From positions 1 through 41,939 of the forward strand of contig LBQR01000029.1 in the NCBI GenBank assembly GCA_000990945.1: a DNA stretch of 41,939 bases. Direction: 5' to 3'. A model generated the notes under the pieces. That model searched no databases and was not told where the DNA came from. It saw only the letters and a list, made by a program, of their open reading frames with translations. Numbering within the stretch: position 1 is the stretch's first letter; the number at the start of each line of letters is the position of its first letter. Source of the DNA: Candidatus Moranbacteria bacterium GW2011_GWF2_35_54 (GTDB lineage: Bacteria > Patescibacteriota > Minisyncoccia > Moranbacterales > UBA9337). Below are positions 16,705 through 41,113 of the stretch, one piece after another. Made by a program: the position numbers and the translations under genes.

Positions 16705-17831
16705 ATGTTTGTAATTAAACAAATGGAATTACGCGCAGCTAAATATCCAGATGTGATTTCATTGGCTCAAGGGGTACCAAATTTTGATACTCCTGAGTGT
16801 ATTAAACGCAGAGTGGAATTGGCTTTAAAAAGAGGGATTGTCGCCAAATATTCGCTTTCTCCTGGAATTTCTGAATTGCGAGAATTAATCGAATTAAAAT
16901 TAGCCCAAGAGAATATGTTTTATGATTGGGAAAAAGAAATTCTGATTACCGCTGGGTCGATTGAAGGAATCACGGCGACAATTTTAGCGCTTACAAATCC
17001 AGGAGACGAAATTATTATCCCTCAGCCAACCTATACTTCTTATCGGGAAGTAATAACTTTGGCTGGTTGCACTCCGGTTTTTGTAGCGCTGGACGAAGGA
17101 AAAGGCTGGGCTTTTGATCTGGAAAAATTTAGGCAAGCGATTACACCCAAGACCAAAGCGATTTTTTATTGTAATCCTAATAATCCCACAGGGACCATTT
17201 ATAGTAAGGAACAATTATTAGGATTAGCCAAGCTGGCCCAGGAACATGATTTGTTTTTAATTTCGGATGAAGTGTATAAAGATTTTCTTTTTGAGGAAAA
17301 CCAAAAAATTTTTAGTTTAGCGGAAATTCCTTTTCCAAATCTTATGCCATGACCGGTTGGCGAGTGGGTTATCTCCATAGCGATGAAAGTATTATCAGAG
17401 AAATTCTTAAAGTTCATGATTCTTTGGTAACTTGCGCGCCGGTTATTTCTCAGTACGCTGCCATGGGAGCTTTGGAGATGGGGGATAAGGATTTAATTGA
17501 AATGAATCAAGAATATAAAAAGAGAAGAGATTTAATTTGCAATCATCTGGACGATATGGCTCATATTTTTTCGTATGTCCGGCCGGAGAGCGCGTATTTT
17601 GTTTTTCCAAAAATATTGCTAGATAATATTGACTATATAGATAATGATCATAGTGGAAGTTTATCTTGGAAGTTCGCCTTAAATTTATTGGAAAAAACCA
17701 AAGTAGCCGTAGTTCCTGGCGTAGCCTTTGGCCCTAACGGCGAAGGACATATTCGAATGAGCTTTGGACGAAGTGAAGAGGATATAAATAAGGCATTTGG
17801 AAGAATGAAGAGATTCTTCAAGGCGTTGTAG
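16705..17831 (+). pseudogene. Class I/II PLP-dependent aminotransferase, interrupted; PLP-lysine segment absent
   Basis: ORF 16705..17352 ends ...SLAEIPFPNLMP; ORF 17349..17831 starts MTGWRVGYL; the usual SFSK-(Y/F)AMTGWRVGY lysine region is missing at the junction. Confidence 0.8.
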
Positions 17832-18906: not shown

Positions 18907-18933
18907 TTAGCACTCGGACTTGACGAGTGCTAA
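18907..18933 (+). promoter_or_regulatory. CIRCE operator (HrcA binding site)
   Basis: Perfect TTAGCACTC-N9-GAGTGCTAA upstream of hrcA. Confidence 0.97.
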
Positions 18934-19131
18934 TTTTTTGTTATAATTAAATTATAGAAAATTAATTCTTCCTTTTCCTCCTCCCCTTGGAAAGGGGAGG
19001 TGCCTGAAAGGCGGAGGGGTTGGATCTTCATATAATCTAAAATATATTTTTTTATAAAAGTTAGTAAACCCCCTCCTTAACCCTCCCCCCTTGAGTACAA
19101 GAGAGAGAGGAATAAAGGAATTCTATAAAGT

Positions 19132-19887
19132 ATGAATAAGAGGCAAGAAAAAATTTTAGAATGCATCGTGGAAGAATATACTTCGACGGCTGTGCCAATT
19201 GGTTCAAAAGTTTTAGTAGAGAAATATGGAATTGATGCCAGTAGTGCCACAATTCGAAATGAGATGGTGGAGTTGGAGGAAATGGGTTATCTTTATCAAC
19301 CTCATATTAGCGCAGGGAGAATTCCTACTGACAAAGGCTATCGTTATTTCGTGGAAGAAATAATGAAAGATAGAGAATTGAGCAAAAAAGAGCAGATGAA
19401 ATTACAGGAGGAATTATTGAAGCTCAAAGCCAAAAATATGCGACTTTCCCGAACGAGTGCTAAATTACTTTCGGGTTTGACGGGCAACTTAGCGATTAGT
19501 GGAATATTAGACAAAGATGAATTTGATGATTTTGGGATGAGGGATTTGTTAAGTGAACCAGAGTTTCAAAAGCTGGATGATATTTGTCGCTTGACTGAAA
19601 CGATGGATTATATCGATGAGATGTTTGATAAAATTGTCAAAGAAATGAAAGAAGGGGAAACAAAAATATTTATTGGAGCTGAAAATCCGGTGGATAAGAT
19701 CTCCAATTGCTCCATGATTGTCTCGCCCTATAAATTAAAAAACGGCCAGCGGGGAGTCTTGGCCTTAATCGGTCCCAAGCGGATGAAATATGCCAAGAAT
19801 AAATCGTTGATTGAATATATAAAGAAGATGTTAGGTTCGGCAAATGTAATAGTGATGGTGGGTGGTATTAATATTTTGATATATTAA
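19132..19887 (+). CDS. hrcA: Heat-inducible transcription repressor HrcA
   Basis: RQEKILECIVEEYTSTAVPIGSK, SSATIRNEM.ELEEMGYL.QPH.SAGRIPTDKGYRYFV. Confidence 0.96.
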   Translation: MNKRQEKILECIVEEYTSTAVPIGSKVLVEKYGIDASSATIRNEMVELEEMGYLYQPHISAGRIPTDKGYRYFVEEIMKDRELSKKEQMKLQEELLKLKAKNMRLSRTSAKLLSGLTGNLAISGILDKDEFDDFGMRDLLSEPEFQKLDDICRLTETMDYIDEMFDKIVKEMKEGETKIFIGAENPVDKISNCSMIVSPYKLKNGQRGVLALIGPKRMKYAKNKSLIEYIKKMLGSANVIVMVGGINILIY

Positions 19888-20036: not shown

Positions 20037-20960
20037 ATGAAAAATAAAAAAATAGAAATGGAGATTGAGAAAGGTTGGCCAATACAGTTAACCGTTAAGG
20101 CTGTGGTTGTAAATAAGGACGGAAAAGTTCTGCTTCTAAAGAGAGCTGAAAAAGAAGTGACCAATAGTTCTAAGTATGATTTGCCAGGTGGAGGAATCGA
20201 AAAAGGTGAGACAATGGAAAAATCTCTCAAAAGAGAATTGGTGGAAGAATTAGGATTGGATAATGTCGAAATTGTTGGGGTAATTAGGGTGGGTGAATAC
20301 CCAGAGGGACATAAAAAATTTGATAGTTTAAAAGCTCTGAGATTTATCGCGCATTACAATGGCGGAGAAATAAAACTAAATCCTCGCGAGCATAGTGAAT
20401 TTGAGTGGCTCAATATCGATGAAGCGATAAAGAAACTAAATACTGGCGATGGTTTTGAAGAAGAAAAAATGGAAACTCTCAAAGCGGCCAAAAAATATCT
20501 GGAAATGGAAATGGCGCTGGATGGTTGGAAAAGAAGCTTGGCAGAGTTTGAAAATTATAAAAAAATGCAAGCCGAAAGCCAGAAAGATAGAATTCGTTAT
20601 GCGACTGAAAATATCGTAATGCAGATAATTCCTGTGATTGATAATTTCCATGTCTCCACCTCACATATTCCCGAAGATCAAAAAGATGGTGGCTGGGTAA
20701 CTGGAATAATGTATATTCAAAAACAACTGGAAAATGTGTTGGCAGAAAACGGAGTAGAGGAAATTAATTTAAAAGTTGGAGATAATTTTGATACTAAATA
20801 TTGCGAGGCCGTTTCGGATAATTGTTGTCATGATGAAAAATGCCAAGATGGTAAATGTGGAGAGAAGAAGAAATTTAAAAATAAGATAAAAAAAGTTATT
20901 TTAAAAGGTTATAAAATTGGTGATAAGGTTATCCGAGCTGCTCGAGTAATCGTAGAATAA
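20037..20960 (+). CDS. Nudix hydrolase - GrpE fusion protein
   Basis: Complete Nudix box GGIEKGETMEKSLKRELVEELGL followed in the same frame by GrpE (AEFENYKKMQAESQKDRIRYATENIVMQIIPVIDNFHVSTSHIP ... ILKGYKIGDKVIRAARVIVE); lies between hrcA and dnaK. Confidence 0.9.
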   Translation: MKNKKIEMEIEKGWPIQLTVKAVVVNKDGKVLLLKRAEKEVTNSSKYDLPGGGIEKGETMEKSLKRELVEELGLDNVEIVGVIRVGEYPEGHKKFDSLKALRFIAHYNGGEIKLNPREHSEFEWLNIDEAIKKLNTGDGFEEEKMETLKAAKKYLEMEMALDGWKRSLAEFENYKKMQAESQKDRIRYATENIVMQIIPVIDNFHVSTSHIPEDQKDGGWVTGIMYIQKQLENVLAENGVEEINLKVGDNFDTKYCEAVSDNCCHDEKCQDGKCGEKKKFKNKIKKVILKGYKIGDKVIRAARVIVE

Positions 20961-21402: not shown

Positions 21403-23325
21403 ATGGGTAAAATATTAGGAATTGATCTCGGAACTACTAACAGCGCGATGGCCATCGTGTCTGGTGGCAAGCCGGAAATAATTGAAAACAAAGAGGGAAA
21501 TCGAACCACACCATCAATGATTGCAATTAATAAAGGCGGAGAAAGATTAGTGGGACTTTTGGCCAAACGTCAAGCGGTAACTAACCATGAAAACACTTTG
21601 TTTTCGATCAAGCGTCTTATCGGAAGAAAGTTTGACGATAAAGATGTCCAAGAGGATATTAAATTAATGCCCTTTAAAATTTCTAAAGCAGCTAATGGCG
21701 GAATTAATGTAAAAATGGGAGATAAAGAGTATACTCCGCGAGAGATTTCAGCTATGGTTTTGCAAAAATTAAAAGCTGATGCCGAAGAAAAATTGGGAGA
21801 AAAAATCGAGGAAGCGGTGATCACTGTGCCGGCTTATTTCGATGATTCTCAAAGAAAAGAAACTAAAGAAGCCGGAAGAATTATCAACGAGCCGACCGCG
21901 GCTGCGCTAGCTTATGGTTTCGATAAAAAGAAAAATGAAAAAATTGCGGTTTATGATCTGGGTGGCGGGACTTTTGATATTTCGATTCTCGAAGTGGGCG
22001 ATGATACCGTAGAAGTTATTTCTACCAACGGAGATACTCATTTGGGAGGAGATGATTTTGATCAAGTTCTCATCAACTGGATAATTGACGAATTCAAAAA
22101 ACAAGAAGGTATTGATTTAAGTAAAGATAATTTGGCTCTGCAGAGAATTAAAGAATCAGCTGAAAAAGCTAAAATTGAACTTTCCACTGCTCAAGAAACT
22201 GAAATCAACCAACCTTTTATCACTACCGATGCCAATGGCCCCAAACATTTAGTGATGAAATTGACTCGTTCAAAAATGGAAGAATTAGTGGGAGATTTAG
22301 TAACTAAAACTATGGAGCCAGTCAGAAAAGCTCTTAAAGACGCAAAACTTGAAAATAAAGACATCAATGAAATTGTGATGGTGGGAGGAATGACTCGCAT
22401 GCCACTGGTACAAAAGAAAGTAGAAGAATTTTTTGGCAAGAAACCAAATTCAAGTGTGAACCCTGATGAAGTAGTGGCCATGGGAGCTGCTATCCAGGGG
22501 GGAGTATTGGCCGGTGATGTAAAAGATGTCTTGCTTCTTGATGTTACTCCGCTGACTTTGGGAATCGAAACCATGGGAGGAATTTCCACTCCACTTATCG
22601 AAAGAAATACGACTGTGCCAACTAAAAAATCTCAGATATTTTCTACGGCGGCTGATAACCAACCTAGTGTAGAAATTCATGTCTTGCAAGGAGAACGTGA
22701 AGTAGCGCAAGGTAATAAAACTTTAGGCAGATTTATCCTAGATGGTATTGCTCCATCTCCTCGAGGAATTCCGCAAGTAGAAGTAACTTTTGATATTGAT
22801 GCCAATGGAATATTGAGCGTGAGTGCTAAGGATAAAGCGACTGGCAAAGAACAATCAATTCGCATCGAAGCCTCTAGCGGAGTAAGCAAAGAAGAAATCG
22901 AAAGAATGAAACAGGATGCCGAGGCGCATGCCGAAGAAGATAAAAAACGTAAAGAAAAAGTCGAAGCGAAAAATATTGCCGAGAGTCTAGTTTACTCTAC
23001 TGAAAAAGCTTTGAAAGACTCGGGCGATAAGATTAGTGAAGATAAAAAGAAACCGGTCATTGAAAAAATGGAAGCGCTCAAGGAAGTTTTGAAAAAAGAA
23101 GAGTCGACTACGGAAGAAATTAAAAAAGCCACTGAAGAATTTTCAACCGAAGCCCAAAAGATTGGCGAAGAGCTTTATAAAGCCACTGCACCGCAAGAAG
23201 AGAATCCCGCCTCTGCTGAAGCTACGGGCGAGACAAAGACGGGCGAGACTAAGGAGGATAATGTAAAAGATGCGGAGACAGAACCAGCAAAAGATAGTGA
23301 ACCAAAAGATGGTGACAAGAAATAA
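21403..23325 (+). CDS. dnaK: Chaperone DnaK (Hsp70), with an 8-residue gap in the NBD
   Basis: [48 protein letters not shown] directly followed by [13 protein letters not shown]. Confidence 0.97.
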
Positions 23326-40161: not shown

Positions 40162-41113
40162 ATGAAATTTGATATTATCACAATTTTTCCTAAAATCTTT
40201 GATTCATATTTTAATGAGTCTATCTTGGGGCGGGCGCAAAAGAAAAATTTAATCCAAATAAATATTCATAATTTAAGAGATTACACTACGGATAAACATC
40301 AAACCGTAGATGATACTCCTTATGGCGGAGGGGCGGGGATGGTATTAAAAATTGAACCAATTTGGAGATGCGTTCAATTTTTAAAATCTCAAATTCCAAA
40401 TTACAAATTACAAAACACCCCCTCTGCCTTTCAGGCATCTCCCCCTTTTATTTTCGGCCAAGGGAAAAAAATATACTCAAAGCGACGCACAAAGATTGTC
40501 TAAATATGAAAATTTAATTATGATTTGCGGACGTTATGAGGGAGTAGATGAGCGAGTAGCAGAGCATATTATTGATGAAGAATTTTCTATTGGAGAATAT
40601 GTTTTAACTGGTGGAGAAATTCCTGCAATGGTGCTAGTAGATTCAGTTAGTCGACTCTTGCCGGAAGTTTTGGGGAATAAAGAATCATTGGCAGAAGAAA
40701 GCTTTAACATTAGTTCAGAGTTACTGGTCAACAGTTCGCAGACAAAAGAAGATCGGAATAGCTCAGAGTTACTGGTCAACAGTTCACAGACAAAAGAAGA
40801 TCGGAATAGCTCAGAGTTACTGGTCAACAGTTCACAGACAAAAGAAGATCAGAATAGTTCAGAGTTACTGGTCAACAGTTCGCAGACAAAAGAAGATCAG
40901 AATAGTTCAGAGTTCGCAGTTGACAGTTCGGGGAATAGTTCACAGCTCACAGTCAACAGTTCACAGACGGAAGGAAATAATTCAAAATTCTCCAAGGAGT
41001 ATCCTCATTACACCAAGCCGGAAGAGTTTAACGGCTGGAAAGTTCCAGAAGTATTACTTAGCGGTAATCATAAAGAGATTGAGAAATGGAGAAAGGAAAA
41101 CGCTAGCGCGTAA
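40162..41113 (+). CDS. trmD: tRNA (guanine-N1)-methyltransferase TrmD, split by frameshift, with two repeat insertions
   Basis: ORF 40162..40503: [25 protein letters not shown]...[16 protein letters not shown] 40496..41113: [13 protein letters not shown]...[11 protein letters not shown]...[24 protein letters not shown]. Confidence 0.93.
40709..40978 (+). repeat. In-frame 48-nt tandem repeat (4 units plus degenerate tail) in trmD
   Basis: (N/I)[14 protein letters not shown](R/Q) x4 at 40709, 40757, 40805, 40853, then degenerate continuation. Confidence 0.95.

Follow-up and report, generated by a model that had tools for sequence, protein, structure and literature searches.

We found that the GrpE protein encoded in the window (the whole stretch of DNA analysed, 41,939 nucleotides) begins with a Nudix hydrolase domain, and that this architecture is order-wide, recurrent and modular in Candidatus Moranbacteria. 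The protein is probably a bifunctional co-chaperone, that is, a working GrpE whose tails are replaced by a catalytically competent Nudix domain, docked on DnaK and expressed with the heat-shock operon. Nudix and GrpE are both known families; their joined architecture appears to be undescribed, and no description of it was found in the open-access literature searched.

The fusion gene and its neighbours are as follows.

18907..18933, strand not assigned: perfect CIRCE operator, TTAGCACTC-N9-GAGTGCTAA (motif match and shuffling)
19132..19887, + strand: hrcA, heat-shock repressor (Pfam HrcA, E 6.6e-21)
20037..20960, + strand: Nudix-GrpE fusion gene, 307 aa (ORF reading, Pfam and AlphaFold2 model)
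21403..23325, + strand: dnaK (Pfam HSP70, E 1.5e-248)

The three genes run in one direction, in the layout of an HrcA/CIRCE heat-shock operon; hrcA ends 149 bp ahead of the fusion gene, and dnaK follows it after about 440 bp. None of 100 shuffles yielded even a 2-mismatch match to CIRCE, and a promoter-like site (18920-18947, 11/12 matches) overlaps the operator. The initial annotation had described one uninterrupted 307-aa ORF with both domains, preceded by a perfect CIRCE and hrcA and followed by dnaK. This description holds: the translation gives 307 open codons with no stop between the domains, both Pfam domains score above their curated cut-offs, and the CIRCE match and the Pfam assignments of the neighbours agree with it. 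In a genome-wide search, the fusion gene was the only GrpE copy in the 1.22-Mb source genome.

Several other observations were made in the window. An interspersed repeat, GGGAGGTGCCTGAAAGGCGGAGGGG, is present between CIRCE and hrcA (18995-19019) and again at 40419-40443. The DnaK lacks 8 residues of the type IAGLxVxR around aa 139-167 in the nucleotide-binding domain that are present in every one of 102 further DnaK stretches matched among relatives, which reflects either an in-frame deletion or an assembly collapse. An aminotransferase-like protein at 16705-17831 is divided, possibly by a frameshift, between the ORFs 16705-17352 and 17349-17831, which overlap and are read in different frames, and a TrmD-like ORF (40496-41113) contains several copies of one 15-aa repeat.

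Within the fusion protein, four features were delimited.

20085..20441, + strand: NUDIX domain, aa 17-135 (Pfam PF00293, E 2.8e-20, above the curated cut-off)
20190..20258, + strand: Nudix box GGIEKGETMEKSLKRELVEELGL, aa 52-74 (sequence)
20451..20663, + strand: single predicted helix, aa 139-209 (AlphaFold2 model and helix register)
20454..20954, + strand: GrpE domain, aa 140-306 (Pfam PF01025, E 2.2e-32)

The GrpE noted earlier in the C-terminal half is clearly recognisable, with a profile score of 112.5 bits against a curated cut-off of 25.8. Across an alignment of 56 fusions, Pfam detected GrpE in 56 and NUDIX in 55, and the equivalents of E. coli GrpE R64, A67, N71 and G122 are invariant in all 56. 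In E. coli, the motif at residues 63-75 touches the DnaK substrate-binding domain and the G122D substitution breaks the interaction with DnaK (PMC12915176). The neighbourhood is also maintained, with hrcA upstream at 50 of 55 fusion loci and dnaK downstream at 52 of 54. The GrpE half therefore remains functional-looking, being the only copy in the source genome and having its contact residues and neighbours kept. The core domain, the DnaK-contact residues and the hrcA-grpE-dnaK locus are all shared with canonical GrpE (PF01025; E. coli 1dkg, Geobacillus 4ani).

An AlphaFold2 model built from the 56-row alignment has a mean pLDDT of 88.7 and a pTM of only 0.62, which leaves the domain arrangement, above all that of the dimer, uncertain. 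In this model, the final Nudix helix runs on as the GrpE stalk without a linker (aa 139-209) and the other GrpE elements follow the stalk helix. The alignment, read by eye, shows that nearly all fusions agree in the length of the helix segment A-x-x-Y-L-E..L-x-x-W-K-R..ADFENYKK, whichever Nudix type they carry, and that differences in spacing sit in the loop ahead of it. The Nudix-GrpE join is accordingly modelled as a rigid continuous helix with conserved register and not as a flexible linker.

Counting along the helix, residue 168 of the window protein corresponds to E. coli GrpE residue 66 and the helix start at 139 to about residue 37, so that the Nudix domain stands in for the disordered tail, which spans approximately residues 1-37 of the E. 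coli protein. This bears out the earlier proposal that the domain substitutes for the N-terminal GrpE tail. The E. coli tail carries a motif, 17-IIM-19, that binds transiently to the DnaK substrate groove and promotes client release; IIM-like motifs are reported to be conserved in many bacteria, but are not strictly defining for GrpE (PMC12915176). Short GrpEs of the order have a median tail of 43 residues, and 30 of 55 such tails contain an acidic-flanked aliphatic pair (EEIIV, EKIIAD and similar; the definition of the IIM-like motif is our own). No such pair precedes the Nudix domain in any of the 56 fusions, an absence that is partly expected because their leaders are very short. Unlike the E. 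coli type, the fusions thus have a folded enzyme domain in place of a disordered tail with an IIM-like motif.

The Nudix box fits the consensus GX5EX7REUXEEXGU exactly, which substantiates the complete box originally read in the N-terminal half. The catalytic columns E58, R66, E67, E70 and E71 are nearly invariant in the alignment of 56 fusions, and the catalytic core REXXE[ED] is retained in 58 of 59 Nudix-bearing ORFs (53 fit the strict pattern, 5 have conservative differences and 1 has lost it; the 6 exceptions were judged by eye). The single fused Nudix without the core is that of G021. In six measurable close pairs, dN/dS was 0.08-0.15 for the Nudix part and 0.06-0.20 for the GrpE part; as judged from the sequences, the Nudix part is under purifying selection similar to that on the GrpE half. 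The structural match points the same way as the profile, with the MutT-type structure 3grn as the best Foldseek hit to the model (E 1.2e-11), hundreds of further matches, and Nudix proteins in 50/50 of the matches listed.

These data bear on a rather improbable reading, in which the Nudix fold is a structural or sensory cap, that is, a rigid head that alters peptide release by DnaK or thermosensing and perhaps binds a nucleotide without cleaving it. The head does sit at the attachment point of the E. coli tails, which extend to the DnaK substrate-binding domain (PMC12915176), and the G021 protein is still fused despite its lost catalytic motif; a pure scaffold, however, would not keep catalytic residues in nearly every member.

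The fold and the full Nudix box are common to the fusions and MutT-like Nudix hydrolases (PF00293; 3grn is a MutT-related protein of Methanosarcina mazei), whereas in the fusions the C-terminal helix continues directly as the GrpE stalk, and the Nudix type of the window forms a clade essentially limited to GrpE fusions. Nudix domains also occur in other fusion enzymes such as the bacterial NadM-Nudix, where the domain is likewise appended to a partner to make a bifunctional protein. Here, in contrast, the Nudix domain is attached to a chaperone cofactor instead of a metabolic enzyme and has undergone many exchanges. Using PADLOC, the Nudix part matched PDC-S07 (E 5e-17), a candidate defence model; the hit has the look of one that any Nudix domain would give, and a defence role was not adopted.

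Our GrpE search covered 132 genomes of the order, mostly metagenome-assembled sequences; the named relatives among them bear the label Candidatus Moranbacteria. The 120 classifiable GrpE genes comprise 61 with an N-terminal Nudix domain, 56 that have only a short disordered tail and 3 in which a different folded domain, nucleotidyltransferase-like in character, is present. The 61 consist of 58 intact ORFs, one that runs off a contig end (G063) and two interrupted by N (G001 and G061); a GrpE cut at a contig end (G048) lies outside the 120. By family, the Nudix form accounts for 5/10 in f1, 15/15 in f4, 1/18 in f6, 9/9 in f9 and 8/8 in f11, with 15 in f7 and 8 in f10. An order-wide survey of this kind rules out a one-off or genus-specific fusion.

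Ten of the 132 genomes, including 4 among the 106 with a completeness of 90% or more, have no GrpE at E 0.001. One of these, G130, may lack it through a contig break, and its type B Nudix, which runs into a contig end, may be a further fusion case.

Adjacent nudix and grpE genes might have been joined by assembly or annotation, as the genomes come from metagenome assemblies and one relative in the same genus (G001) at first resembled two ORFs. The initial annotation had itself named relatives with separate ORFs as evidence that would count against it. The apparent splits in G001 and G061 are runs of N, that is, assembly gaps between the halves, and the fusion recurs across dozens of separate genomes, which makes such an artefact extremely improbable. 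The fusion is real and not an isolated assembly join.

Outside the order, the fusion was found in all five sampled genomes of family f55 of the same class (3 complete and 2 truncated at contig ends, where Nudix residues can still be seen) and, among 381 genomes drawn from the phylum, in the single genomes G699 (f157) and G744 (f176). The GrpE of f157 and f176 is far from that of the order, and the fusion therefore probably has more than one origin. Among the matches listed for 249 Pseudomonadota genomes, none covered both domains.

The head domain appears to have been gained, lost and swapped many times. Trees were built from about 150 columns each. The N-terminal state switches at least 18 times on the GrpE tree, an estimate because the tree was quickly built and many of its branches are weak. 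Most fused domains belong to one of three supported clades of the Nudix tree, namely A (31 rows), B (20) and C (10 fused and one paralog); G056 and others lie outside them. Set against 56 stand-alone paralogs, the fused domains form clades of their own and mostly cluster together instead of with paralogs of the same genome; with a paralog sample taken from 19 genomes only, capture of a local stand-alone paralog in each genome is unsupported. On the GrpE data, clades that unite G081 with G105/g37 (AU p 4.6e-5) and G007 with G017 (AU p 4e-85) are rejected, although the Nudix domains group in both cases, which places the same Nudix type on unrelated GrpE backbones. An exchange between G000 and G120 was hinted at by the Nudix tree (97), yet was not retained because a common GrpE clade is not rejected (AU p 0.117). 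Between G044 and G115, dS is 0.13 in the Nudix part and 0.66 in the GrpE part, and by sequence this gene is a mosaic.

Individual genomes show further arrangements. Tandem heads are present in G084 (Nudix A-Nudix C-GrpE, L109:153-1544) and G063 (Nudix B-Nudix A-GrpE, L102). Two sister species of one genus differ, with a fused GrpE in G120 and a short one in G121. G111 has a short operon GrpE and, at another locus (L246:1591-2145, - strand), a detached type A Nudix that ends in a remnant of the GrpE stalk helix, ASRYLQMQNFSDGRRK. With the Nudix domain of the window as query against the 132 genomes of the order, the 33 best matches are all GrpE-fused (G001 being counted through its assembly gap), and the first non-fused protein is the G111 relic. 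Types B and C have stand-alone proteins among or near the fusions, so the case for dedication to GrpE is strong for type A only. One relative of type C, L178 (G081 C3:8431-8793), is a 239-aa protein with an extra domain ahead of the Nudix that looks ASCH-like by eye.

The three GrpE genes with the alternative head (L066:4904-5881, L021:1498-2424 and L007:943-1941) share the motif GSxGL...D-x-D. Their nucleotidyltransferase-like identity is a lead only, given a model pLDDT of 57, Foldseek nucleotidyltransferase matches at E 0.18-0.5 and, for one gene, a Pfam NTP_transf_2 match below the cut-off (E 0.0039).

The Nudix half is not essential, as it is swapped and is absent in many relatives (G121 next to G120, for example), and the detached copy of G111 implies that the enzyme can apparently be useful undocked. 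It is conceivable, though on balance doubtful, that the domain acts as a conventional soluble hydrolase of (d)NTPs or metabolites and gains only heat-shock co-expression and stability from the fusion, without coupling to DnaK. Such a free passenger would suit the interchangeable and at times doubled Nudix types, the survival of the relic, the many species without a Nudix head and the 4-14 Nudix proteins per genome in the order. It fits poorly with the almost exclusive association of the window's Nudix type with GrpE and with a join made by a continuous helix in fixed register. It also leaves the sacrifice of a functional GrpE tail needless, and the same protein captured Nudix domains repeatedly in several lineages.

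We thus favour the bifunctional co-chaperone. Given the position of its gene in the HrcA/CIRCE heat-shock locus, the enzyme would be produced together with DnaK under stress and, through GrpE, would dock on it in the cell. In a GrpE dimer, the stalk tip would carry two rigidly held Nudix domains next to the DnaK substrate-binding domain, and the docked domain would cleave a nucleoside-diphosphate-linked metabolite. The most plausible substrate class is a stress nucleotide that affects the chaperone, such as Ap4A, or a damaged nucleotide; Ap4A binds to E. coli DnaK (reviewed in PMC7705103), which makes it one candidate. The rigid attachment and its site speak for some interplay with client release, the recurrent swaps and the surviving detached copy for a passenger. 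Several type A members carry a proline 15 residues past the Nudix box, as in ADP-ribose pyrophosphatases; this was too weak a basis for a substrate call, which was dropped.

Nudix domains were also seen in another setting in the order. A leucyl-tRNA synthetase has one beside its editing domain (L206:1602-4061, source genome C76, and L207; Pfam NUDIX E 8.1e-10, aa 279-372), and several genomes likewise have Nudix matches in ORFs that are 820-990 aa long. Aminoacyl-tRNA synthetases make Ap4A, so this is suggestive of an Ap4A link, as a speculation.

More tentatively, GrpE may serve as an exchangeable platform, where three Nudix clades, tandem pairs and the nucleotidyltransferase-like domain are swapped at one stalk position, and each, docked on DnaK, links the turnover of nucleotides or alarmones to the release of clients. 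If true, the chaperone cycle would be under the control of a small-molecule enzyme built into the exchange factor.

GrpE is among the most conserved co-chaperones, and the repeated swaps of its head represent a striking domain exchange within a housekeeping gene. A role in DnaK client release was assigned to its flexible tail only recently (PMC12915176), and in half of the sampled order this tail is replaced by an enzyme with strong selection on its active site. How stress nucleotides might be tied to the control of Hsp70 has been discussed for decades without a clear mechanism, and a protein in which a nucleotide hydrolase is physically attached to the exchange factor of Hsp70 renders such a link directly testable.
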